A stretch of 64,000 nucleotides of DNA from contig JABDFS010000003.1 of the NCBI GenBank assembly GCA_013286425.1, positions 1-64,000 of the forward strand. Reading direction: 5' to 3'. Made by a program: the position numbers and the translations under genes. Shown here piece by piece: positions 9,849 to 62,643 of this stretch; position 1 is the first letter of the stretch; every line of letters starts with the position of its first letter. Source of the stretch: Bacteroidota bacterium. GTDB taxonomy: Bacteria > Bacteroidota > Bacteroidia > Chitinophagales > Chitinophagaceae. The notes under the pieces are model-generated. The model saw nothing but the letters and a program-made list of their open reading frames with translations. It did no database searches and was not told where the DNA came from.

Positions 9849-9856
9849 TACATTTG
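9849..9856 (+). promoter_or_regulatory. Bacteroidota-type -7 promoter element (TACATTTG)
   Basis: TAnnTTTG match 27 bp before ATG 9883. Confidence 0.35.
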
Positions 9857-9882
9857 TGCAAACGAAAAAGGATTATTACTGC

Positions 9883-10692
9883 ATGAAGCGACTATTTTTT
9901 ACGCTAACTTTATTTATTTGCTGCACTTATTCATTAAAAGCACAGGATGAAAAAAAACACTTGTTTTATGGAATGTATTTGCAATGGGGTTATAACGCCG
10001 AGTGTTATACGCATAGCAATATTTTTTTCAAGATGAGTAACGGAGATAATTTCACTTTACATCACGCAAAAGCGCATGACCAGGGAGATTACAGCGACAT
10101 TTACAGGCATCCTGAAGAAGTATCAATACCCCAGTATAATTATCGCTTTGGGTTTTACCTGGACAAAAATTTTACAAAAGCGATTGAAATAAATTTTGAC
10201 CATGCAAAATATGTTGTAACAGATGGACAAACCGTGCATGTAACCGGTACTATCGATAAGCAACAGGTAGATGGCGACAGTGTTTTAAATGCACAAACAT
10301 TTTTACATTTTGAACATACAGATGGAGCTAACTGGTTGCATATAAATTATGTTGGGCAAAACACCTTGTTTCAAACAAGATCTAAATCGCGCGACTTACT
10401 TACACTTATTTACAAAGGCGGCGCAGGCATTAATATTCCACGAACAGATTTTACATGGAAAGGCGATCGTTTAAACAATAACTTTCATGTGGCGGGCTAT
10501 AATATCAGCGTTGAAGCAGGAGTAAGATTTTATATGCTTAAAAACTTCTTCCTGGAAACCACAGGTAAAACAGGCTATGTACGATACGTTGATGCACTCG
10601 CCAACACCTCTACAGCTAAAGGCAACAGGGCTTCACAGGGATTAGGTTACCTCGAGGCAATAGCAACACTTGGTTACCAGTTTAAATTTTAG
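9883..10692 (+). CDS. Predicted outer-membrane beta-barrel protein
   Basis: Signal peptide MKRLFFTLTLFICCTYSLKAQ, beta-rich sequence ending in YQFKF. Confidence 0.6.
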   Translation: MKRLFFTLTLFICCTYSLKAQDEKKHLFYGMYLQWGYNAECYTHSNIFFKMSNGDNFTLHHAKAHDQGDYSDIYRHPEEVSIPQYNYRFGFYLDKNFTKAIEINFDHAKYVVTDGQTVHVTGTIDKQQVDGDSVLNAQTFLHFEHTDGANWLHINYVGQNTLFQTRSKSRDLLTLIYKGGAGINIPRTDFTWKGDRLNNNFHVAGYNISVEAGVRFYMLKNFFLETTGKTGYVRYVDALANTSTAKGNRASQGLGYLEAIATLGYQFKF

Positions 10693-12596
10693 TTGGATTC
10701 CTTTTTTATAAATACCATTTTGCTGCGGTCTGATTTATAAATTGTATTTACAAAAGCACCGAAATCTGCATAAGCCGATGAGGGAAACCTTGAAGCATTT
10801 TGTTGAAATTTTCTTACGCAACTAACAGTATTATCCTGGTATTTAAAACTGATTGAATAACTGCCATAAGGTGTATTAAGGTTTACATCTTTCGGAAGGC
10901 TTTCTACGGTATACTTTCCACTGAGTTTAATAGAAACAGAATCAATGTGTGTAAAAGGATCATCCAATACAATATCATAGACACGTTTTTCTGATGTGTC
11001 TATTTTAACGCCTAAATGTGTTATTACATTAGGCATTAAAAAAAACCTTTTACCCATTGCCGAAGCGTAGTTGGTTGCATTTATTTGAAGGTCTTCATCA
11101 ACTGAAGGAATCATTCCTTTATTCTGTTTGTAGTTATAACTTGTAACATCATAAGTAGGCAAATCAAATTCTTCTTTCAAAACATCTTCTATACGTTTCT
11201 TATCTGCATAATCAAGCCGCAATTGCACATCATCCGATTCGCACGCTGCATAATGCGTAAATACTTTTGCAGTTAAATTGCCTGCACTGTCAACTGTGCC
11301 TTCTATATTTCTAATAATTAAATTATCGTTTGCATTATACTGCGGCGTTCTAACAATATGCCCGCCATTTTCATCAACTAATAAAGCATAACGGTTTCCT
11401 GTAAATGTTCCGGCATAACCTGTGGATTTGGTTTGACTGGTGCATTCAAGCCAGATTGAATCTTTATCAAGCGGCACACAAACAGTAGCATGGTTAAATT
11501 GGTTGATCGGGAAATCTGTCTGAATAGGTTCTTCACCTTCACCTGCTTTAATTAAAACATAATCTGCTTTAATTCCGGCTTCGCTTAACAAAGCAACCAT
11601 ATAGTTTGACAGTGCTTTACAATCGCCATATTTATTTGTCGCAACATAATTTGCGTCAAAAGGCTGCCAGCCGCCCACACCTAACTGCACACTTACATAT
11701 CTTGAATTTTCCTGAAGGTATTTATAAAGAATATCAACTTTTTCACGCGGGTCTTTTACGTTATCCGTTAATGCATGTACTTTCTGTTTCACATTGTCAG
11801 GCAATACATCCCTGTTTTTTCTAAGTGTATTAATAAAATCTCCAAAGCCTTTCCATGTATTCATGTCTCCTGTATAATCATCAAGCCCAAAAGTTGTAGG
11901 CGCAAGCATAACAGAAGGCATAATATCTCTCCATCCCGGCTGATATACTTCATACTTTTTTGTTGTAAGATTATCTACTTCCCATGTGTAAATTACTTTA
12001 TCGCCCTTTTGTGTTATCTGTGGTTCTGTTTTTAAATTAAATTGTTTGTAACGGAATTTATAATTTGAAGGTGCTTCAACAATTAGTTTACTTGCCTGAA
12101 CACTCATTAAGGCAGATATCTGCGGATCCCATGTTGGTAAGGAAAACATTTGATTTTGTTCATCCTCTTCTTCATATTCAACGGTGTAAGGATAATCCCT
12201 GCAATAAAAATTATGTTCTTTATAGCGTGCATCAATCATTAAACTATAGCCATCATAGCTTGCATGATCTGATATATCTTTTCTCTTGACTTCCTTTAAT
12301 TTTTTACCGGACGCATCATATAAGCTTCCGTCAAGATCATTTATAGAATTGAACTTATCGTAGTATGTTGTATAATCAGCGTATTTATCGCCAGCTTCAT
12401 TTAGAATGGTGTATACCTGTTTTTCATATAAGATTGCTTTTTTCTCATTTATGATAGTAAGGTGCATCTCAGAATACCGATCAACCACGTTCGCGTTCTT
12501 CATTAAAGAATCAGGGATCATCAATATATTATAATTCTGTGCACGCACACATAAAGCAGAAAAAATTATAGCGCTAAAAAATATTAAGGATTTCAT
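10689..12596 (-). CDS. Secreted DUF3857/transglutaminase-like protein, catalytic Cys and His present
   Basis: KYGDCKALSNYMVALL (Cys), FNHATVCV (His), WLECTS (acidic position Glu); signal peptide. Confidence 0.88.
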   Translation of the reverse strand: MKSLIFFSAIIFSALCVRAQNYNILMIPDSLMKNANVVDRYSEMHLTIINEKKAILYEKQVYTILNEAGDKYADYTTYYDKFNSINDLDGSLYDASGKKLKEVKRKDISDHASYDGYSLMIDARYKEHNFYCRDYPYTVEYEEEDEQNQMFSLPTWDPQISALMSVQASKLIVEAPSNYKFRYKQFNLKTEPQITQKGDKVIYTWEVDNLTTKKYEVYQPGWRDIMPSVMLAPTTFGLDDYTGDMNTWKGFGDFINTLRKNRDVLPDNVKQKVHALTDNVKDPREKVDILYKYLQENSRYVSVQLGVGGWQPFDANYVATNKYGDCKALSNYMVALLSEAGIKADYVLIKAGEGEEPIQTDFPINQFNHATVCVPLDKDSIWLECTSQTKSTGYAGTFTGNRYALLVDENGGHIVRTPQYNANDNLIIRNIEGTVDSAGNLTAKVFTHYAACESDDVQLRLDYADKKRIEDVLKEEFDLPTYDVTSYNYKQNKGMIPSVDEDLQINATNYASAMGKRFFLMPNVITHLGVKIDTSEKRVYDIVLDDPFTHIDSVSIKLSGKYTVESLPKDVNLNTPYGSYSISFKYQDNTVSCVRKFQQNASRFPSSAYADFGAFVNTIYKSDRSKMVFIKKESN

Positions 12597-12602
12597 TTTT
12601 TA

Positions 12603-14645
12603 TTATTGTTTCTTAAATACTATTTGTTCACTTTCCTTTTCAACAACCGATGCATAAAAGTTGCGCAGCGTTTCGTAATCTTCCGGTTCAAATGTTGCCT
12701 TATTTATTTTTAAACGAATAAGCATTTGAATCTGGTCATCGTTTTGTTGTACAAGATATTCAAAAGAACCTTCATTGCCATTCAATGTTACTCTTGCTGA
12801 TTTTGGAAGCTCATCAACTTTATAACCTGCCGGAACCTGCATGCTCAGAATATATGTTTTGTATATGCAAAAAGGTATTTCCACAGGATAAGAACGCTCA
12901 GCAGCTTTAAAAGGGTTTCCCGTTATCATATCAGTGCCAACAACCGGGTTAAAATAAATAATGTCACCTTCAGGTTTAAAAGATAAATTATATTGAATGC
13001 CCACAGGCAGCTCTTTATGTTCCAATGAATCTACTGAAGCATTACTTATGTTTACATCAAATGAATAATTTTTTGTAAGACGCTTAAAATAATCCGCTTC
13101 ATTTACAGCAGCCAGTTCCCTGCGTATGTTTTGAGATTGAAATTCACCCAGCGTGCTTTTATATGCACCGGAAATTTGTCCGGTACTATCATTGCTTAAA
13201 AATAAATTTGAAACCACAGTTTCTTTCAGTGAATCTGAAAAAAGATATAACGAATCAGGCCGGTTTGCATCAATCACTCTTGCATAACCATTAAAACATT
13301 TTACAGGAAGTTTTCCAAATCCAAGTACAGGATCAGCGGCATCAAGCAAATAGGTTTGCCCGTTAATTGTTGCCCTGCAAATAAGATAATCAAACTTATC
13401 TCTAACCGGGTAATTGGGATTTAAAAAACCATTTTCTTTTGTGCTTAGCATAACCGGTTGCGCATAAATGCCTTTGTTGTTTAGCATAGCTGTCAGCAAA
13501 AGATTTATTCCTCTTACACTACCTTTTTGTTTTTTATATACATCAACCAAATCCGTAGGCCGCAGTGCATCCGAAGTATCTGAACAGGTATAATTATTTT
13601 GCAGGTAGTAATAAATTTCTTTGGCAACATCCAGGTTATTTTGAGGATTGGCAGAACCCGGCACATCTTTTATCCACCAGGCATTATCATGCGCAGTGGC
13701 TTTTTGAAAATCATCATCATCAAAAAACTCTTTACATGCTGTTTGCCATGTGTTCCATACTGCAGATTGAGATTCGCCATTATAAGTTCCCGAGAGCTGA
13801 AATTCAATTTTATCAACATAGTTTTCCGGAGATGAAATATAGCTTTCAGGTTTGAAAGGCTTTACATCTTTTTGGGCCCACACAAAATTATTTGTAACAG
13901 CGCTTACACTTAATTGTTCATCCTGCATACCAAGGCTGCTTTTATCTGCTGGCTTTGTTACCATATAAGTTTGATAACCCTGTGATGATTTCTTCAAATA
14001 AAATGAATCAAACCCCTGGTGTATTAAAATATATGTTAGTGCTGAAGGAATGGAGACTTTACATTCACTCCATAAGACCGGGTATTCTGCACTTTGAAAA
14101 CGCCATGAAGGAATGCTGAATGTATATGGAGAAGTAACGGTATAGGTGTATTCAAATATTGATCCTTCCTGTATACCCGGCAACGTAAATTTTTTGACAG
14201 TTATATTTTTATTTTCCTGCTCAGAAAAAATATCACTCTTACTTAAAGCCACCGATGTTACATTACCATTTGAAAGCGTATAGGTAACAGCTTTTACATC
14301 TGATAACTCTTCGGTGTTATCATCCTTTGAATACAACGGTATTCTTACAGTTGCAAGATCAAATGCCTTTTTATTGATGATCTTAATTCTTCTTGTACAG
14401 GTATACACATAGCTAAACCAGGCTTTTTTATTGCCCACAAAATGCGTGTATCCCGATTCGTATAAGATAATAGCAGCATCGTCGGGACTTACAATTGAAG
14501 AAGAAACGTCAAAATCTTTTGCGTTTACATTTCCGAATTTAAAGTCTGCTTCTTTCTGACAAAAAACAATACCTGAACAAAAAATAAAGCAACTAATAAT
14601 TATTGATCGCTTTAATATGGTTGAAAATGAATACCCTGTTTTCAT
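12603..14645 (-). CDS. Secreted DUF3857 protein with degenerate transglutaminase domain (paralogue A)
   Basis: KGSVRGINLLLTAML in place of GDCxxL; KFDYLICR in place of NHxI; YLLDAADP retained. Confidence 0.85.
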   Translation of the reverse strand: MKTGYSFSTILKRSIIISCFIFCSGIVFCQKEADFKFGNVNAKDFDVSSSIVSPDDAAIILYESGYTHFVGNKKAWFSYVYTCTRRIKIINKKAFDLATVRIPLYSKDDNTEELSDVKAVTYTLSNGNVTSVALSKSDIFSEQENKNITVKKFTLPGIQEGSIFEYTYTVTSPYTFSIPSWRFQSAEYPVLWSECKVSIPSALTYILIHQGFDSFYLKKSSQGYQTYMVTKPADKSSLGMQDEQLSVSAVTNNFVWAQKDVKPFKPESYISSPENYVDKIEFQLSGTYNGESQSAVWNTWQTACKEFFDDDDFQKATAHDNAWWIKDVPGSANPQNNLDVAKEIYYYLQNNYTCSDTSDALRPTDLVDVYKKQKGSVRGINLLLTAMLNNKGIYAQPVMLSTKENGFLNPNYPVRDKFDYLICRATINGQTYLLDAADPVLGFGKLPVKCFNGYARVIDANRPDSLYLFSDSLKETVVSNLFLSNDSTGQISGAYKSTLGEFQSQNIRRELAAVNEADYFKRLTKNYSFDVNISNASVDSLEHKELPVGIQYNLSFKPEGDIIYFNPVVGTDMITGNPFKAAERSYPVEIPFCIYKTYILSMQVPAGYKVDELPKSARVTLNGNEGSFEYLVQQNDDQIQMLIRLKINKATFEPEDYETLRNFYASVVEKESEQIVFKKQ

Positions 14646-14651
14646 AAAAAT

Positions 14652-16688
14652 TTATTGCTTTTTAAAAACTATTTGCTCTCCTTCTTTTTCAACTATAAAA
14701 GCAAAGAAGTTACGCAATGTTTCATAGTCTCCGGGTTCAAAGGTTGCCTGGTTCAATTTCAGGTGGCACATCAATTGAATGTTATCACCGGTATGTTGAA
14801 TAAGGTATTGAAATGTTCCCTGGTTATCGTTTAAAGAAATGCGTGCCGATTTAGGTAATTCATCAACCACATAACCGGTTGGAACCTGCATATTCAACAC
14901 ATATGTTTTATCCATACAATAATCCATTTCTACAGGGTAAGATCGCTGTGCAGCTTTGAACGGGTTTTCTTTTTCCATTACAGGAGCCATTGGATTAAAA
15001 TAAACTATATCATCGCCACCTGTTTTAAAACTTATATCATAATGAACAGCAACAGGCATTTCTTTCTGATCAAGTGAATCAATACCTGTATGGGTCATGT
15101 TTATATCAAAAGGATAATCGTTTTTCAAATTTTTAAAATATCCTGTTGAATTTGTGGTTAACATTTTTTCGCGCATACCAGCAGACGAAATTTTGCCCAT
15201 TGTATATTTAAATGTCCCTGAAATTTTTCCATCATCATCGTTACTTAATGAAAGCGTTGAAACATCTGTATTCACCAAAGAATCGGAAAACAAATACAAT
15301 GAGTCAGAACGGTGTGTATCAATAATTCTTGCATAACCATTATAGCAGTCAGTTGAAAGTTGGTCAAAGCTTAGCGTTGGTTTAGTAGCATCAAGTAAAT
15401 ATACTTTTCCATTAATCACACTCCGGCAAATGATGTAATTAAGTTTATCAAGAACAGGATAATAAGGATTTATAAAACCGTTTGATTTTGTGCTAAGTAT
15501 TGCAGGCTCTGCATAAATGCCTTTATTTTTTAGCATGGCTATTAATAAAAGATTTATTTCTCTTACTGTTCCTTTCTGCCTTCTGTACACTTCATATAAA
15601 TCGGTATACGAATAAATATCCCGGCTATTTGTACATGCATAATTATTCTGCACATAGTAATAAATTGCTTTTGCTGTTTCAAGTTCATTACTATTAGTAC
15701 CGGGAATATCTTTTATCCATGAGTTATCACCTGCATTAGCCTGTATAAAATCTTTTTTGTTTGTGAAATAATCTATTACAGACTTCCATGTATTAAACAC
15801 TTTTTCTGTGTCTTTACCATTATATGTTTGTGAAAGCTGAAACTCAATTTTATCAACATAATTAACCGGCGAAGAAATAAAGCTTTCTGTTTCAAAAGGC
15901 ATCAGATCTTTCTGCACCCATTTGTGATTAATTGTAGGCGCATCTACATACCAATTCATTGCCAGTGTATAAGCATCCTCAAGCGGCGCTTTCTGATTTA
16001 CTTTATAGCTTTCTTTTCCCACCCATGCTTTATTAATAAAAAAAGGATTTAAGCCTTGTTTTATAGAAGTGTACGTTAACATGGTAGGAATTGAAATCCT
16101 GTATTCGCTCCATAATACCGGGTACTTTGTATCCTGGAATTCCCAAAAGGGAATATGCAAAAGATAAGGTGAGTTTTCCGTGTATGTGTATTCAATTATA
16201 CAGCCTTCTTTAACTGCAGGCAGCGTAAATTTTTTAGTGATATGGTTTTCATCTTCCACTTCCGAAAAAATACTGTTCTCATCCAATGATGATGATGAAA
16301 CTTTTCCATTTTCAAGACTATAGGTAGCTGCTTTAACGCCTGACAGCGTTTCTGCTGTTTCATCATCTTTATATAAAGACAGTTCAACAGTTGCTAAATC
16401 GAAAGCTTTTTTATTGATTATTTTTATTCGTTTGGTACAGGTATAAACGTAATCAAACCAACTCTGGTTATTGCCGGCAAAATGTGTAAAGCCGCACTCA
16501 TATAAAATTACAGCACCGGTGCTGCTGTCTACCATTTTGGAAGAAGAAACATCAAAGTCTTTTGCAGTTACATTTCCGAATTTAAAATTTGCATCTTCCT
16601 GGCAAAAAACAATAACAGGAAAAAATATAAAACTTAAAAGGATGATAAATTGCTTTAAAGCAATTAAGGGTTGATAAACAGTTCTCAT
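14652..16688 (-). CDS. Secreted DUF3857 protein with degenerate transglutaminase domain (paralogue B)
   Basis: KGTVREINLLLIAML, KLNYIICR, YLLDATKP; extensive similarity to paralogue A. Confidence 0.85.
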   Translation of the reverse strand: MRTVYQPLIALKQFIILLSFIFFPVIVFCQEDANFKFGNVTAKDFDVSSSKMVDSSTGAVILYECGFTHFAGNNQSWFDYVYTCTKRIKIINKKAFDLATVELSLYKDDETAETLSGVKAATYSLENGKVSSSSLDENSIFSEVEDENHITKKFTLPAVKEGCIIEYTYTENSPYLLHIPFWEFQDTKYPVLWSEYRISIPTMLTYTSIKQGLNPFFINKAWVGKESYKVNQKAPLEDAYTLAMNWYVDAPTINHKWVQKDLMPFETESFISSPVNYVDKIEFQLSQTYNGKDTEKVFNTWKSVIDYFTNKKDFIQANAGDNSWIKDIPGTNSNELETAKAIYYYVQNNYACTNSRDIYSYTDLYEVYRRQKGTVREINLLLIAMLKNKGIYAEPAILSTKSNGFINPYYPVLDKLNYIICRSVINGKVYLLDATKPTLSFDQLSTDCYNGYARIIDTHRSDSLYLFSDSLVNTDVSTLSLSNDDDGKISGTFKYTMGKISSAGMREKMLTTNSTGYFKNLKNDYPFDINMTHTGIDSLDQKEMPVAVHYDISFKTGGDDIVYFNPMAPVMEKENPFKAAQRSYPVEMDYCMDKTYVLNMQVPTGYVVDELPKSARISLNDNQGTFQYLIQHTGDNIQLMCHLKLNQATFEPGDYETLRNFFAFIVEKEGEQIVFKKQ

Positions 16689-16693
16689 AAAAT

Positions 16694-18700
16694 TTATAAC
16701 TTTTTAAACACTATTTGCTCTCCTTCTTTTTCAACAATAAGTGCAAAGAAGTTGCGCAGCGTTTGGTAATCATCAGGTTCAAAAGTTGCTTTATCTATTT
16801 TAATACGGCAAAGTAATTGTATACGTTGATCATCACTTTGAACAAGATATTCAAACATCCCTTCATCACTATTTAATGACACACGTGTTGACTTAGGCAG
16901 TTCATCAATCTTATATCCCTTTGGTATTTCCATATTCAGGATATAAGTTTCATCACTGCAATACGGCATTTCTACAGGGTAAAATCTTTCCGCTGCACTA
17001 AACGGGTTTTCTTTATAAACAGCATCTCCTACAACCGGCGAAAAGTAAAGTACATCTTCGTCAGGCTTGAAAGAAATATTATACTTTACTGCTACCGGCA
17101 TATCAGTTTTTTGAAGAGAATCAATATTGATATTGGCAAGATCAACATCTAAAGCAAAAGATTTTTTTACGTTTTTGAAATAATCATCTACGCTTGAACT
17201 CTGCATTTTTTTACGCATATTTACAGATTGCATTATGCCCATAGTATTTTGATAGTTTCCTGTCATTTTCCCATTGTCATCATTGGTAATAATTAAACTT
17301 GTTTCTTCTGATTCATGCAAAGAATCAGAAGAAAGATTTATCAGGACGGGAGCCGATGCAATTACCCGCGCATAACCGTTGTAACAATCTTCATCCAGTT
17401 TGCTAAAGCCTAATAATGGTCGAGCAGCATCAAGCAGGTAAAATTTATTATCATCGATATTCAATCTTGCAATTACATAATTGTATTTACTCATTATAGG
17501 ATAGACACTATTTGTTTTCCCATGGCCTCGTGTACTTAACAAAACAGGATCTGCATCAAAGCCTGCGTTTCTCAACATTGCAATCAATAGCATATTAATA
17601 TCTGAAACATTACCCTTCTTAGTTTGTTGAGTTTTCCTAAGTGGTTGCGATAAAAGGATAGCAGAATGATTAATACAGGAATAATTTTTTTGAATGTATT
17701 CGTAAATCTTTTTTGCTTTTTCTATAGTATCTGATTCGTTTTGTACTGCTGCTTCAATATCATCTTTTAACCAGCCATTATTTTTGGAAAGATCAGCGCC
17801 GAAATCATCAGCCTGCATTAATTTGTCAACCATTTCATTCCACGTATGTATGTAATAACTGGGTGATTCATTGGGCGGCCGAATTGCAAATAATTGAAAT
17901 TCCAGTTTTTGTACATAATTATCAAGATCTGTAATAAATTTTTCTTCTTTAATAACAGGAACATCTTTATAAGCCCATGTATGTTTTATAGTGTTGCTTC
18001 TGAAATCATAAACTTGTCCGTTACTTGGTACAAATATTCTGAAGTTATCAGCAGAAGATAAAACCGTATCTAAAACAGGTTCAAGATAGCCAGGGCTTAA
18101 AACAATAAAATCAAAAAATTGCGGAATTTCAGTGCTGAACTCACTCCATAATTTAGGATACTGACCTTGAAAATGCCATGAGGGTATATCTAAAAAGTTG
18201 GGTATTGTTTTAGTAAAACTATATTCAATTATGCATCCTTCTTTTAAATCAGGGAAGGTAAATTTCACTATTTGATTGTCGCCATCTTTATCTTTAAAAA
18301 CAGAATTCTTATCAACTTTTGTTTCAACTACCTTACCGTCTTCAATATTGAAAGTAGATGCCTGCAGGTCGCTCACCCTTTCCATATCATTGCCTAATTT
18401 GAAAAGTGGAATTTTTACTGTTCCCAGGTTATCAAAACTTTTCTTATTTAATAAGCGAATGCGTTCATGCACTGTGTAAACAACAGAAAACCAGCCCTGG
18501 GAATTGCCAATATGTTTAGATGAGCCAATATCATACAAATAAACCGCGTTCGCTGAAGAATCTACTTCATATACTTTGGGTGCAAAATCTGCAGGCGAAA
18601 TATCGCCAAATTTAACTTTTGGCTGTACACTTTGAGCGGAAATAGTTGCTACGCCGAGAACCATAGCCAACAGGCAGGCGTTTAAGCGGTTGAAAATCAT
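16694..18700 (-). CDS. Secreted DUF3857 protein with degenerate transglutaminase domain (paralogue C)
   Basis: KGNVSDINMLLIAML, KYNYVIAR, YLLDAARP; C-terminal FEPDDYQTLRNFFALIVEKEGEQIVFKKL shared with A and B. Confidence 0.85.
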   Translation of the reverse strand: MIFNRLNACLLAMVLGVATISAQSVQPKVKFGDISPADFAPKVYEVDSSANAVYLYDIGSSKHIGNSQGWFSVVYTVHERIRLLNKKSFDNLGTVKIPLFKLGNDMERVSDLQASTFNIEDGKVVETKVDKNSVFKDKDGDNQIVKFTFPDLKEGCIIEYSFTKTIPNFLDIPSWHFQGQYPKLWSEFSTEIPQFFDFIVLSPGYLEPVLDTVLSSADNFRIFVPSNGQVYDFRSNTIKHTWAYKDVPVIKEEKFITDLDNYVQKLEFQLFAIRPPNESPSYYIHTWNEMVDKLMQADDFGADLSKNNGWLKDDIEAAVQNESDTIEKAKKIYEYIQKNYSCINHSAILLSQPLRKTQQTKKGNVSDINMLLIAMLRNAGFDADPVLLSTRGHGKTNSVYPIMSKYNYVIARLNIDDNKFYLLDAARPLLGFSKLDEDCYNGYARVIASAPVLINLSSDSLHESEETSLIITNDDNGKMTGNYQNTMGIMQSVNMRKKMQSSSVDDYFKNVKKSFALDVDLANINIDSLQKTDMPVAVKYNISFKPDEDVLYFSPVVGDAVYKENPFSAAERFYPVEMPYCSDETYILNMEIPKGYKIDELPKSTRVSLNSDEGMFEYLVQSDDQRIQLLCRIKIDKATFEPDDYQTLRNFFALIVEKEGEQIVFKKL

Positions 18701-18805
18701 AAACAGTGGTTTTAGAAAGCTGCAATGTTACAAATTTTGTTAATAAGGCAACTTTTTTTCATTAACTAAGGTTTACCCATACATAAGCTAACATAAAAAT
18801 CCTGT

Positions 18806-57343: not shown

Positions 57344-57470
57344 ATCACAACATTTTTAATATAGGATATTAGTTGCTTAACCAGTTCAGGTATCTGGCTT
57401 ACTAAATTTTTTCCCGGTTTTGCCGCATATTTATTTATTTTGCGACCGCCAAAAAAATTGTTTAGTGAGT

Positions 57471-59348
57471 ATGAAGTTACCCGTAACCTTATTATTATTG
57501 CTTGCTTTTGGTATTAAAGCCAGCGCCGGAAATTTTGCATCAAAAGATTCAAACATTATTATCAGTAATGCAAAAGATGTGTATGAGTTTGTTTATGACA
57601 AATCATCAAACAGCGTACAGGTAAAAGAATCATCAACCACAATTTATAACTGTAACGATTTCAGGAGCACATTGCCTGTTGTTGAATTTTACAACGAAAA
57701 GGTAACGATTGATGATGTTGACTTTTCGGTTGACGGCAAAAAACCCAAAGATGTAAAGCCTGTCTATTCTTATTACGAAATAGATGATTATTTTTATTCG
57801 GATGCACATATTTGTTACTTTCCTCTGCTGCTTGATAAAAAAGGAAGCGTTGCCCAGGTAAGCTTTCAGAAAACCATACAAGATCCACGTTATTTTACCA
57901 ATGTATTTTTTGATGAGATCTTTCCGGTTGCTTTAAAACAAATTGTTTTTAAAGTACCAAAGTGGATGAACATTGAATTAAAGGAAATGAACTTCAATGG
58001 TTATACCATCAGCAAAACAAAAGACTACGATAGCAAAAATGATGAAGATGTTTATACTTATACTGCATCAAACATAGAATCACGCGACGGTGAAGCATCC
58101 TGCCCCGGCCCAACTTATATTTATCCGCATATATTGGTTATTTCAAAAGAAGCAAATCCCGCAGGTACAACGATTACTTATTTTAAGTCAACAGCAGATC
58201 AATATGCGTGGTATCGTTCTTTGCTGAAAGATATTTCCAACAACGAAACAATTATTAAAGCAAAAGCGGATGAAATAACTGCGGGTAAAACAAACGACAT
58301 AGATAAAATAAAAGCTATCTTTTATTGGGTTCAAAACAATGTTAGGTATATAGCTTTTGAAGATGGTATTGCCGGTTTTTTGCCTGATAAAGCGGATGAA
58401 GTAATGCGCAAAAAATATGGCGATTGCAAAGGCATGGCAAATCTCACCAAAGAATTGCTGAAAGCAGAAGGTTTTGATGCAAGGCTTTGCTGGCTGGGCA
58501 CCAATCATATTGCGTATGATTATTCAACGCCTTCGCTTGCTGTGGATAATCATATGATTTGTGCACTGATGTATAAAGGCAAAACATATTTTTTAGATGC
58601 AACAGAAAATTATCTCGCATTAAATAATTATGCAGAACGTATACAAGGCAGGCAGATATTGATTGAAGATGGCGATAAATATATTCTTACACATGTGCCT
58701 GAAGAAACATACACGCAAAATCTTGACTCAGAAAAAAGAGTGCTTACAATAAACGGCACTGATTTAAACGGAACCGTTAATCAAAGCTGGAAAGGCGAAG
58801 AGAAAGAATATATTTTGTACGAGTTGAACACAGTCAAGAAAGATAAATCGCAGGATGCATTGAAGCGGTATTTGGCAAATGGTAGTGCCGATTATAAAAT
58901 AACCGATCTTAAAACATCAAGCCTTGACAGCATTGATGGCGATCTTACTGCAAGCTATTCAATGGTACACAGCAATGCTGTTACATCGTTTGGTAAAGAT
59001 TATTATGTTGATCTTGATTTTAAAAAAGAGTTAAGCAGCAGTGATTTCGATACATCAAAGCGCAAGCTTGATTATTTGTTTCCTTACAAAACGCATATTG
59101 AACGTATAACCGAACTTACTGTTCCGGCAGGATATAAAATTAGTTCTGTGCCGCCGGATCTTTCCATCAGCAACAGCAACTATGATTTTAGTATCACATA
59201 CAAACAACAACCGAATAAAGTTGTTTATCACAAAAGCATCATTCTTAAAAACACACATGTTGCCAAAGCAAATTTTAAGCAATGGAATGATGATATCGCA
59301 AAACTTACCGAAGCTTATAATCAACAATTAGTTTTAACCCAGCAATAA
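57471..59348 (+). CDS. Secreted DUF3857/transglutaminase-like protein with intact catalytic triad
   Basis: KKYGDCKGMANLTKELL (Cys), VDNHMICAL (His), YFLDATENY (Asp); start refined to MKLPVTLLLLLAFG. Confidence 0.9.
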   Translation: MKLPVTLLLLLAFGIKASAGNFASKDSNIIISNAKDVYEFVYDKSSNSVQVKESSTTIYNCNDFRSTLPVVEFYNEKVTIDDVDFSVDGKKPKDVKPVYSYYEIDDYFYSDAHICYFPLLLDKKGSVAQVSFQKTIQDPRYFTNVFFDEIFPVALKQIVFKVPKWMNIELKEMNFNGYTISKTKDYDSKNDEDVYTYTASNIESRDGEASCPGPTYIYPHILVISKEANPAGTTITYFKSTADQYAWYRSLLKDISNNETIIKAKADEITAGKTNDIDKIKAIFYWVQNNVRYIAFEDGIAGFLPDKADEVMRKKYGDCKGMANLTKELLKAEGFDARLCWLGTNHIAYDYSTPSLAVDNHMICALMYKGKTYFLDATENYLALNNYAERIQGRQILIEDGDKYILTHVPEETYTQNLDSEKRVLTINGTDLNGTVNQSWKGEEKEYILYELNTVKKDKSQDALKRYLANGSADYKITDLKTSSLDSIDGDLTASYSMVHSNAVTSFGKDYYVDLDFKKELSSSDFDTSKRKLDYLFPYKTHIERITELTVPAGYKISSVPPDLSISNSNYDFSITYKQQPNKVVYHKSIILKNTHVAKANFKQWNDDIAKLTEAYNQQLVLTQQ

Positions 59349-59349
59349 T

Positions 59350-61578
59350 ATGAGAACTAAATTTTTATTTATCGCAGCAATACTATGCATTGTAATAAAT
59401 GCATCAGCGCAAAAAGATGAAGCTGAATACAAACAAAGATCACAGGATATTCAATCTGAGTTATGGAGCAATCCTGCAAAAGAGTTTGCAGTAAAAGCTA
59501 TTCCTTCAACTATGGATAGCGAAAGTGCTGTAATTATTGCAACATCTTTTGATGTAGTGAACAGTGCTAAAATGAAAATGAAATTCGGTGCGCTTGGCTT
59601 TGGTTCTGTGCAACGCGTATTTTATCAAACAACATTTCACGAAAGAGTTAAGATAAACGATAAAGCCGCACTTGAAGATTATTCAACCATAGAATACCAG
59701 AAGAAGCTTGACAAATCAGTTTCTGTTGCTTTAATAAAAGTGTATAATAAAACAACAACATACATAGGTGCAAAAATTATTAAGCCCGACGGAAAAGAGA
59801 TTGTTGTGAATACAGATGAAGAAGTGTTAACCAAAGATGAAACAAAAAATAAAGCAGGCAAGCTTGCTATTTCTGATCTGCAGGTTGGTGACATTCTTGA
59901 TTATTATATACGCATAGAACAAATGCAGGAACTTAATTCTGACATGCAGGGCCCGTATACATTTTTTCTTGGCGGTGAATATCCTATTTTATACCAATCT
60001 ATAAAATTGCAACTGGATGAAAAATCCGGTGTTGAATATATTACCGGCAATGGCGCGCCTGCAATGAAAGAAATGCGCGATGACGATGACAACATCATTC
60101 TTTTTTCAGAGCAGAGAAACCTGCCCAAAATTCAAAGCAGTTTATTTACTTCATCTTACAGGCAATATCCCTATATATCTATACAATACATGTTCATTAC
60201 AAAAGGTGCAGATGCCAGCACGCATTTTAGTAAAGGTGAAGTAAAACATGGTTTTTTAAGTGACGCCTTGTTAGACCAGTTTCAGAAAATATTGCAAAGC
60301 AACGCAGTGCCAGTTAACTATTCGGCTTATATAAAAACAGCAAATTATTTTGGAGGTGAAAAACATTTGAAAGATCAGTCGCAGGATACACTTGTAAAAA
60401 CTTTATACAATGCATGGCGGCTTACAACCTTCTGTGATTTTTCAACTACCAATATTGACATTACAAATGATAACAATTACGCACAGGCCAACAGCCTTAT
60501 TTGCGCCATTAGTATGAGCCGTATGTTACGAACATTGGGTATCGATCATGAAATTGTGCTTTTGTGCCCGCGCAACTCAAACAAATTAAAAGATGTGATG
60601 AACCTTGGCGATTTTGAAGCAATGATCCATTTAAAAAATGGTAAAGATTATTGGCTGGCGTTTAATGATATTGTAACACAATTCAATGAAATACCTGCAA
60701 GATTCCAGGGAGAAGATGCACTTACATTCCGTCCCGATATGGATGCAAAAAATCTTGAGTACAATCCTATGGGTAAACAGAAAATTCCTGTGGCATCAGC
60801 TGATAAAAACACAGAAACAGAAAATATTAATGTTGCTTTCAATTCATCCAACATGCAGCAATTACAGATAGACAGGTCAACAACATTATCAGGTGCAACC
60901 AGGCATTACACACAAAAAGAATTATTAATGATGGAAGATATGCAGGCAGACCTTGCAACATCTGTAAATGAAAAAAAATTAACCGACAGGCTTGCTGATG
61001 ATAAAAAACAACAGAAGCTTGTAACTGAATTCAGCGCTGCTTTCGCAAAAGAAAAAACAAACCAGAAATCTTATTTTGAAGATGAGATAAAAGAACAGTA
61101 TGATCAATCAGCAAAAGATGTTAGTTCGTATGAAGTGAAAGATGCAGGCATGTTCAGTTCAAACTTTATGTATCATACCAATTTTACAATGGATAATTAC
61201 GTAAAGAAAGCAGGCAACAATTATATAATTGAGGCAGGTAAGCTGTTAGGTTCTGTAACCAAGATTGAAGAGAAAGACCGCACAAGAACTTTAGATGTTT
61301 ATATGCCTTATGCAAGAACATATACGTACAATATTTCGCTCGCTTTGCCCGCAGGTTATAAAGTAAAAGGCCTTGAAAATTTCAATAAGAATGTAAGCAA
61401 CGAAACAGGCTCATTAACTTCAACTGCAACAGCAGATGCCGCCGCTGTACATATCACTATCAAACAGCAATTCCTTAAAAATTTTGAAGTAGCTGCAAGC
61501 TGGCCAAAGCTGCTTGAGTTAATGGATGGCTTATATGATGTAAGCAATCAAAAATTATTGTTTGAAAAAAGCAATTAA
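59350..61578 (+). CDS. Secreted DUF3857-like protein with degenerate transglutaminase core
   Basis: Same architecture; NYAQANSLICAISMSRMLRTLGI lacks GDC, FEAMIHL lacks the His, YWLAFNDI; 1-bp gap from the upstream gene. Confidence 0.75.
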   Translation: MRTKFLFIAAILCIVINASAQKDEAEYKQRSQDIQSELWSNPAKEFAVKAIPSTMDSESAVIIATSFDVVNSAKMKMKFGALGFGSVQRVFYQTTFHERVKINDKAALEDYSTIEYQKKLDKSVSVALIKVYNKTTTYIGAKIIKPDGKEIVVNTDEEVLTKDETKNKAGKLAISDLQVGDILDYYIRIEQMQELNSDMQGPYTFFLGGEYPILYQSIKLQLDEKSGVEYITGNGAPAMKEMRDDDDNIILFSEQRNLPKIQSSLFTSSYRQYPYISIQYMFITKGADASTHFSKGEVKHGFLSDALLDQFQKILQSNAVPVNYSAYIKTANYFGGEKHLKDQSQDTLVKTLYNAWRLTTFCDFSTTNIDITNDNNYAQANSLICAISMSRMLRTLGIDHEIVLLCPRNSNKLKDVMNLGDFEAMIHLKNGKDYWLAFNDIVTQFNEIPARFQGEDALTFRPDMDAKNLEYNPMGKQKIPVASADKNTETENINVAFNSSNMQQLQIDRSTTLSGATRHYTQKELLMMEDMQADLATSVNEKKLTDRLADDKKQQKLVTEFSAAFAKEKTNQKSYFEDEIKEQYDQSAKDVSSYEVKDAGMFSSNFMYHTNFTMDNYVKKAGNNYIIEAGKLLGSVTKIEEKDRTRTLDVYMPYARTYTYNISLALPAGYKVKGLENFNKNVSNETGSLTSTATADAAAVHITIKQQFLKNFEVAASWPKLLELMDGLYDVSNQKLLFEKSN

Positions 61579-61770: not shown

Positions 61771-62643
61771 ATGAAACCGGTGCTTCGCCAGATTACTGCC
61801 ACGCCAGAGTATTCTTTTCTGGTAAGAAAAGATGTTGGTGGAAATATGATTAATAACTGGCATTATCATCCTGAAATCGAATTGCTTTTTATTCAAAGAA
61901 GCGTTGGCACATGGCTGATAGGCGATCATATCGGGTATTATAAAAGTGGTGATGTAGTATTGATCGGGCCAAACCTGCCGCATTGTTTCAGGCATGAATA
62001 TGATTATGTGATGAAGCGTGATGAAACAGCTGGTGAAACCATTTGCATAAAGTTTCTGCCTGATGTTTTCGGAAACCAGTTTTTAAATCTTCCTGAATGT
62101 AAAGACATAAAAGATCTGTTTGCAAAAAGCTCACGCGCATTAAAACTAACAGGCAAAACAAAAGTTTGTGTAGCCAACGCTATCGAAAAAATTACAAACC
62201 TGCCTCATAGTAAAAAACTTATACAGGTTTTATCTATTCTTGAAACAATTGCAGAAAGCAAAGAATATAAACCACTTTCATCTAACGGATTTGTACAGGC
62301 ATACGACCATAATGATCAGAACAGGATCAAAACTATTTTTGAGTACACTTTTAATCATTATGATGAAAAAATTTCAATTGATAAAGTAGCGTCACTTTTA
62401 AATATGACAAGGCAATCTTTTTGCCGGTATTTTAAAAGTAAAACCAAAAAGACTTATGTGCAGTTTTTGATGGAAGTAAGAATTGGACAGGCATGCAGGC
62501 TATTGGTTGAAGAAGAAAAAAATGTTGCTGAAATAAGTTATGCTTGTGGGTATAATAATATATCACACTTCAATCACCAGTTTAAATTTATTACTGGCAA
62601 AAAACCACTGGAGTATAAGAAAGATTATTTAAAAGAAACCTGA
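61771..62643 (+). CDS. AraC-family transcriptional regulator with N-terminal cupin
   Basis: WHYHPEIELLFIQRSVGTWLIGDHIGYYKSGDVVLIGPNLPH; HTH SIDKVASLLNMTRQSFCRYFKSKTKKTYVQFLMEVRIGQACRLL...NISHFNHQFKFITGKKPLEYKK. Confidence 0.96.
   Translation: MKPVLRQITATPEYSFLVRKDVGGNMINNWHYHPEIELLFIQRSVGTWLIGDHIGYYKSGDVVLIGPNLPHCFRHEYDYVMKRDETAGETICIKFLPDVFGNQFLNLPECKDIKDLFAKSSRALKLTGKTKVCVANAIEKITNLPHSKKLIQVLSILETIAESKEYKPLSSNGFVQAYDHNDQNRIKTIFEYTFNHYDEKISIDKVASLLNMTRQSFCRYFKSKTKKTYVQFLMEVRIGQACRLLVEEEKNVAEISYACGYNNISHFNHQFKFITGKKPLEYKKDYLKET

Follow-up and report, generated by a model that had tools for sequence, protein, structure and literature searches.

The four transglutaminase-like genes in the window, which is the whole 64,000-nucleotide stretch of DNA analyzed here, are a local copy-number expansion of a two-gene module found across the Bacteroidota. 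In this module a gene for a predicted cysteine enzyme lies beside at least one gene for a paralogue that lacks the catalytic cysteine; we refer to the two kinds of gene and protein as live and dead, respectively. The array is read as a local expansion because most loci elsewhere have a single dead copy, two of the three dead genes in the window (P2 and P3) are sisters, and the remaining one (P4) has orthologues throughout the genus. The source is a Chitinophagaceae draft genome with a completeness of 64%, with Parafilimonas as its nearest named relatives, and most members of the family in this genome are catalytically dead by motif. The DUF3857/transglutaminase-fold genes P4-P3-P2-P1 form a head-to-tail row on the minus strand from 18700 to 10689 and are given below in transcription order, preceded by a candidate promoter.

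18723..18751, minus strand: candidate single promoter upstream of P4, TTG-N18-TAACATTG, weak and read by eye
16694..18700, minus strand: P4, first in the array, a Cys-less DUF3857/TG/DUF3858 pseudoenzyme of 668 aa with V365/Y408/D424 at the catalytic sites
14652..16688, minus strand: P3, Cys-less, 678 aa, sister of P2
12603..14645, minus strand: P2, Cys-less, 680 aa, sister of P3
10689..12596, minus strand: P1, last in the array, 635 aa, with an intact-looking triad C326/H369/E384

The open reading frames agree with the original prediction of four head-to-tail proteins of 635 to 680 aa separated by 5 to 6 bp, the intergenic gaps being 5, 6, and 6 bp in the order of transcription. All four proteins score above the curated Pfam cutoffs for DUF3857 and Transglut_core, carry a signal-like N terminus, and are predicted to be secreted. 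A DUF3858-like C terminus is recognized above the cutoff in P2 to P4 and falls below it in P1 (21.9 versus 27 bits), whose C-terminal domain region is covered by a fold match to the solved structure 3kd4. Motif reading supported the replacement of Cys by Val and of His by Tyr, with retention of the Asp, in each of P2 to P4; the motifs are KKGNV, NY, and LLDA in P4, QKGTV, NY, and LLDA in P3, and QKGSV, DY, and LLDA in P2. For the promoter-distal P1, the GDC and NH motifs of the expected Cys-His-Asp triad are present (YGDC and NH), but the Asp is not, as the third site is occupied by Glu (WLECT).

P1 is 18 to 20% identical to P2 to P4, which are 42 to 58% identical among themselves (57 to 58% for P2 versus P3), and the four genes are therefore not recent copies of one another. 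In the tree, P4 is the orthologue of a dead gene that occurs genus-wide, P2-type copies cluster with the second-type dead copies of other Chitinophagaceae (support of 98), and the two dead types split before the genus arose (support of 98). The candidate P4 promoter has one mismatch to the Bacteroidetes promoter element, the consensus of which is TAnnTTTG; a pattern search for this 8-base element within the window found no enrichment over chance. The divergent neighbor of P4 (18806-19699, plus strand) encodes a protein with a cupredoxin-like N terminus and a type IX secretion C-terminal sorting signal. At the other end, a gene for a 278-aa protein without a Pfam family (9856-10692, plus strand) converges on P1, and the two gene ends overlap by 4 bp.

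Cys and His are retained in 151 of 151 live proteins, and the third site in these P1 relatives is Glu in 148 and Asp in the rest. Cys is absent from the catalytic site in all of the approximately 200 dead proteins, where the former Cys site is occupied by V, E, S, I, A, G, T, D, P, or W. The His site of the dead members is mostly Tyr and varies by lineage (H/Y/K/R/T/N), with His still present in one set of dead lineages, and the third-site Asp is retained in about 98% of dead members. The phylogeny separates dead from live proteins by one branch (support of 97), and the dead P clade has a support of 100. The loss of Cys requires one change on this tree, while the distinction between Val and non-Val requires 10; among 49 dead rows, the residue at the Cys site requires 16 changes and that at the His site 12. 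A single loss of Cys thus took place in the ancestor of the P dead family, and losses of His came later and more than once. Because the single Cys loss predates the copies in the window, the identical residues of P2 to P4 reflect inheritance and not convergence, and the three parallel losses that had been proposed reduce to one change that serves the whole dead family. A clade marked by the V/Y/D combination had also been proposed; the many residues found at the Cys site and the 10 and 16 changes counted above led us to reject V/Y/D as a specific signature, and the clade is better described as Cys-less. In a number of loci (L147, L150-L152, L155-L157, L159, L160, L162, L163, L167, L170, L173, and L191), dead members have kept the His and Asp and lost the Cys alone, to Ser or Gly, which is possibly an intermediate state.

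One P1-type gene is adjoined by at least one dead gene in 80 related loci and in 20 loci from relatives, with one dead copy per locus in most, two in 38, and three or four in a few. The Chitinophagaceae loci were retrieved with a dead protein and so could not be used to test pairing. Pairing was instead tested with a P1-only search of 248 genomes across the phylum, which gave matches at E ≤ 1e-40 in 60 of them; the 60 loci read from these matches contained 61 live genes. All 61 of these Cys-His-Glu/Asp enzymes had a same-strand Cys-less paralogue no more than 400 bp away. The dead neighbor is upstream in 39 cases, downstream in 21, and on both sides in 1, with a median gap of 2 bp, and since it may occur on either side, adjacency outlives gene order. 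In L093 (13952-18009) and L134 (11484-13484), one live gene is flanked by dead genes on both sides, with P-H-D dead members downstream and V-Y-D copies upstream.

A dead neighbor seems to be a requirement for the live gene, whereas a dead gene may be solitary, as in L126, L218/L270, L263, L269, L272, and L280. At least some dead proteins function without an adjacent live gene or pair with one in trans. One of the solitary genes encodes a dead DUF3857 protein found in two genomes of the genus (G000:C32:24140-24625, in L002 and L218, and its orthologue in L270), with the motifs KQGNS, QFNT, and LLDGT. A functional context was sought in the conserved neighboring genes, and no functional neighborhood was found in those examined; most of them have housekeeping functions and are specific to a lineage (queG, clpB, ssb, murB, aroA, and dtd), which argues that the live and dead genes are a unit of their own.

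The window contains a second, distantly related pair.

57420..59348, plus strand: Q1, the live member, with YGDC/NH/LDAT
59350..61578, plus strand: Q2, the dead member, in which all three catalytic motifs are gone and Pfam Transglut_core is not recognized

Q1 and Q2 are separated by 1 bp, and 16 of the 18 Q1 loci from relatives have an adjacent dead paralogue. A gene for an AraC-family regulator follows Q2 at 61771-62643. A third pair type, R, was found at five loci in two other Bacteroidota families (L252, L254, L256, L258, and L264); its live members have YGDC or YADC-KDYS, NH, and WYDGT, and its dead members have GD[A/V/I] and an Arg at the His site. After removal of the catalytic columns, the P-dead and Q-dead proteins still group together (support of 95). 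A single Cys loss for P, Q, and R has the higher likelihood, but the test did not reject separate losses, with the P pair as a clade of its own (p-AU of 0.83 and 0.59). The family also includes stand-alone live forms, among them proteins of about 1250 aa that have one DUF3857/transglutaminase unit with an intact triad and no dead neighbor (L250, L253, L259, L261, and L262). The possibility that these long proteins are fusions of a live and a dead member was rejected, as the two that were checked consist of TPR repeats and one live DUF3857/TG.

Selection on both kinds of gene was assessed from dN/dS values calculated by the Nei-Gojobori method, in which many of the wider pairs have saturated dS and are given little weight. 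Dead orthologues have values from 0.035 to about 0.14 apart from a single pair at 0.22, and the live genes that accompany them in those genome pairs have values of 0.036 to 0.15; for the window versus L039, the live gene gives 0.090 and the dead genes give 0.129 and 0.128. The dead members are thus under purifying selection, as had been anticipated, and the motifs, selection, and adjacency together substantiate the central idea of the original prediction, that of conserved pseudoenzymes beside a potentially active member. Its argument that the dead copies are not decaying stands on dN/dS far below 1 and frames that are intact phylum-wide; the part of the argument drawn from their identical replacements falls away, as these were inherited.

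In two genomes with two modules each, the live and the dead protein of a module stay matched to one another. Between L153 and L158, the live proteins are 56% alike and the dead proteins 52%, and between L164 and L166, the values are 56% and 51%, against about 30% otherwise for a comparison of modules in one genome. The overall mirror correlation between live and dead proteins is r = 0.91, a value that common descent alone could produce. The comparison of modules within a genome is stronger evidence of fidelity because both modules have the same species history.

AlphaFold2 models of P4 (pLDDT of 92.8, pTM of 0.84) and P1 (pLDDT of 93.2, pTM of 0.87) place V365 and C326, respectively, at the start of a helix, Y408 and H369 at the start of the same strand, and D424 and E384 after the next strand. 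In these predicted structures, V/Y/D and C/H/E hold the same positions in the fold, as judged by sequence and by position in the predicted secondary structure and not by distances. The best solved match of both models in Foldseek is 3kd4 (E of 6e-26 for P4 and 1e-32 for P1), with later matches that include 3isr and the N-terminal domain of M1 aminopeptidases. 3kd4 is BDI_1141 of Parabacteroides distasonis, a "putative protease," and is the basis of the Pfam DUF3857/DUF3858 families. It has the same three-part architecture as P4 and P1, and its own Cys is absent too (YGTPLE where YGDC is expected); however, it is only 12 to 13% identical to them, and, of the two family profiles, its sequence matches the live one more closely. 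A sequence search with the dead profile found no closer solved structure, and a search for a functional study of 3kd4 found none.

Where the constraint lies bears on what the dead proteins may do. In the live proteins, conservation of the core (0.53) is far above that of the flanking domains (0.37 to 0.39), with Cys and His at ranks 2 and 3, while in the dead proteins the core (0.40) hardly exceeds DUF3857 (0.38) or the C-terminal part (0.35). It is possible that the dead proteins hold the same substrate in a residual pocket and so protect it, present it, or compete for it, much as had been suggested in the form of binding without cleavage. The third-site Asp, at rank 11 of 668, the Tyr that replaces His in most lineages, at rank 83, and the conserved xIN motif that follows the old Cys site would fit such a role, and pseudoenzymes that trap or compete are known (PMC10211241). 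However, the old Cys site is unconstrained (rank 334), the His site differs among lineages, and the strongest dead-specific windows are in DUF3857 (EGxIIEY and KFTFP) and in the C-terminal domain (RxYPVEM), which weakens this explanation to the point where we consider it unlikely. With constraint on dead members found in every domain and drift at the old Cys site, a role as partner or scaffold fits better than a substrate pocket. It is far less probable still that the dead proteins are atypical enzymes that catalyze some other reaction with migrated or different residues. Migrated residues do rescue some supposed pseudoenzymes (PMC10211241), and the dead members of the Chitinophagaceae frequently have two well-conserved Cys residues, C342 and C439 in P4 numbering, each of which is present in about 52 to 57% of the dead family. 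These two largely co-occur (both in 91 proteins, neither in 75, and one in 34) and are both missing from many others, so that a disulfide, and not a moved nucleophile, is the probable reading of this pattern. The position of C342 is Trp elsewhere in the phylum. In agreement with the expectation that no real Cys or His lies elsewhere in these proteins, conservation across the dead family reveals none that is common to it; a migrated catalytic Cys was therefore rejected, and the old Cys site itself tolerates Val, Glu, Gly, Pro, and Trp.

An explanation that dispenses with the live partner, and that we also regard as unlikely, is that the dead members have an independent function after secretion, in binding, in the envelope, or in adhesion, and that their adjacency is a relic of an ancient tandem duplication. 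The solitary dead genes, the identity of only about 20% between dead and live proteins, and the lack of a functional gene neighborhood are consistent with this. It is harder to reconcile with adjacency that is complete phylum-wide, has near-zero gaps, and is kept through swaps in gene order, or with the co-inheritance of live and dead genes module by module in genomes that have two modules, or with the occurrence of pairs in three subfamilies. The loss of catalytic residues is the sole point in favor of degenerating duplicates on their way to becoming pseudogenes; the low dN/dS, the intact frames, and the single ancient loss refute this at the level of the family and leave it a negligible likelihood.

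We hypothesize that the module encodes a secreted enzyme-pseudoenzyme complex that is produced from one operon and works in the manner of the M16B peptidases with an unrelated fold, and we hold this to be, on balance, probable. We regard P1-type proteins as probable hydrolases or acyltransferases of the papain/transglutaminase fold, secreted or periplasmic and equipped with a Cys-His-Glu triad. Their Cys-less paralogues would be noncatalytic partner subunits that share a transcript with the live subunit, would bind it through surfaces of DUF3857, the core, or the C-terminal domain, and would be required to stabilize, activate, or target it; where there are several dead copies, these may be alternative or additional subunits. 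We infer the physical complex and the role of the dead subunit from the adjacency of all 61 live genes, the one ancient loss of Cys, selection, the fidelity of modules, and the recurrence of pairing in Q and R. However, tandem duplicates can remain neighbors without forming a complex, some dead genes are solitary, and the activity of P1 is itself a prediction, with Glu at the third site. A more speculative form of the hypothesis, which we think doubtful, is that of an obligate transglutaminase-fold holoenzyme throughout the phylum, in which the live Cys-His-Glu subunit would be unable to function unless joined by a pseudoenzyme subunit, and the one to four tandem dead copies would serve as specificity subunits that can replace each other and direct a single secreted enzyme to different targets.

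A widespread Bacteroidota family of predicted secreted proteins, labeled "transglutaminase-like" or "putative protease" in databases, is built as pairs of live and dead genes, and both the annotation and the assay of these genes are affected, as a live protein assayed by itself may seem to lack activity. The natural variants with one to four dead copies offer a testable system for the control of a cysteine enzyme by dead subunits.

In eukaryotes, partnerships with pseudoenzymes have been studied extensively. In cyanobacterial ClpP/ClpR, a dead paralogue activates or co-assembles with a live one. The same holds for AdoMetDC/prozyme of T. brucei (PMC5201418); both systems belong to unrelated families and are analogues of mechanism only. 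By fold and by the positions of its triad, P1 resembles the transglutaminase-like cysteine peptidase superfamily (clan CA; 3isr, LapG, and vasohibin), in which the triad is usually Cys-His-Asp/Glu and Cys-His-Glu is accepted as functional (PMC4866520). No description of enzyme-pseudoenzyme operons in this superfamily was found in a literature search that covered few subscription journals, and a search for literature on DUF3857/DUF3858 returned one incidental mention only. The clearest bacterial case found for comparison is the M16B metallopeptidase pair, in which an active protein and an inactive homologue are encoded by a two-gene operon and form a heterodimer that requires the inactive subunit (PMC11266112, PMC8960859). 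The P proteins have neither the HXXEH zinc motif nor the M16 fold and are not members of M16B, which are zinc peptidases of a clam shell shape with unrelated fold and chemistry; by Pfam and by fold, the P proteins belong to the transglutaminase superfamily. The complex is proven for M16B and proposed for the P pair, and in the P system as many as four dead copies may accompany a live gene. What the P pair has in common with Sph2681/Sph2682, Bcn-gP1/gP2, and the alpha and beta subunits of mitochondrial MPP is the combination of an active protein with a homologous inactive one, encoded by adjacent genes.
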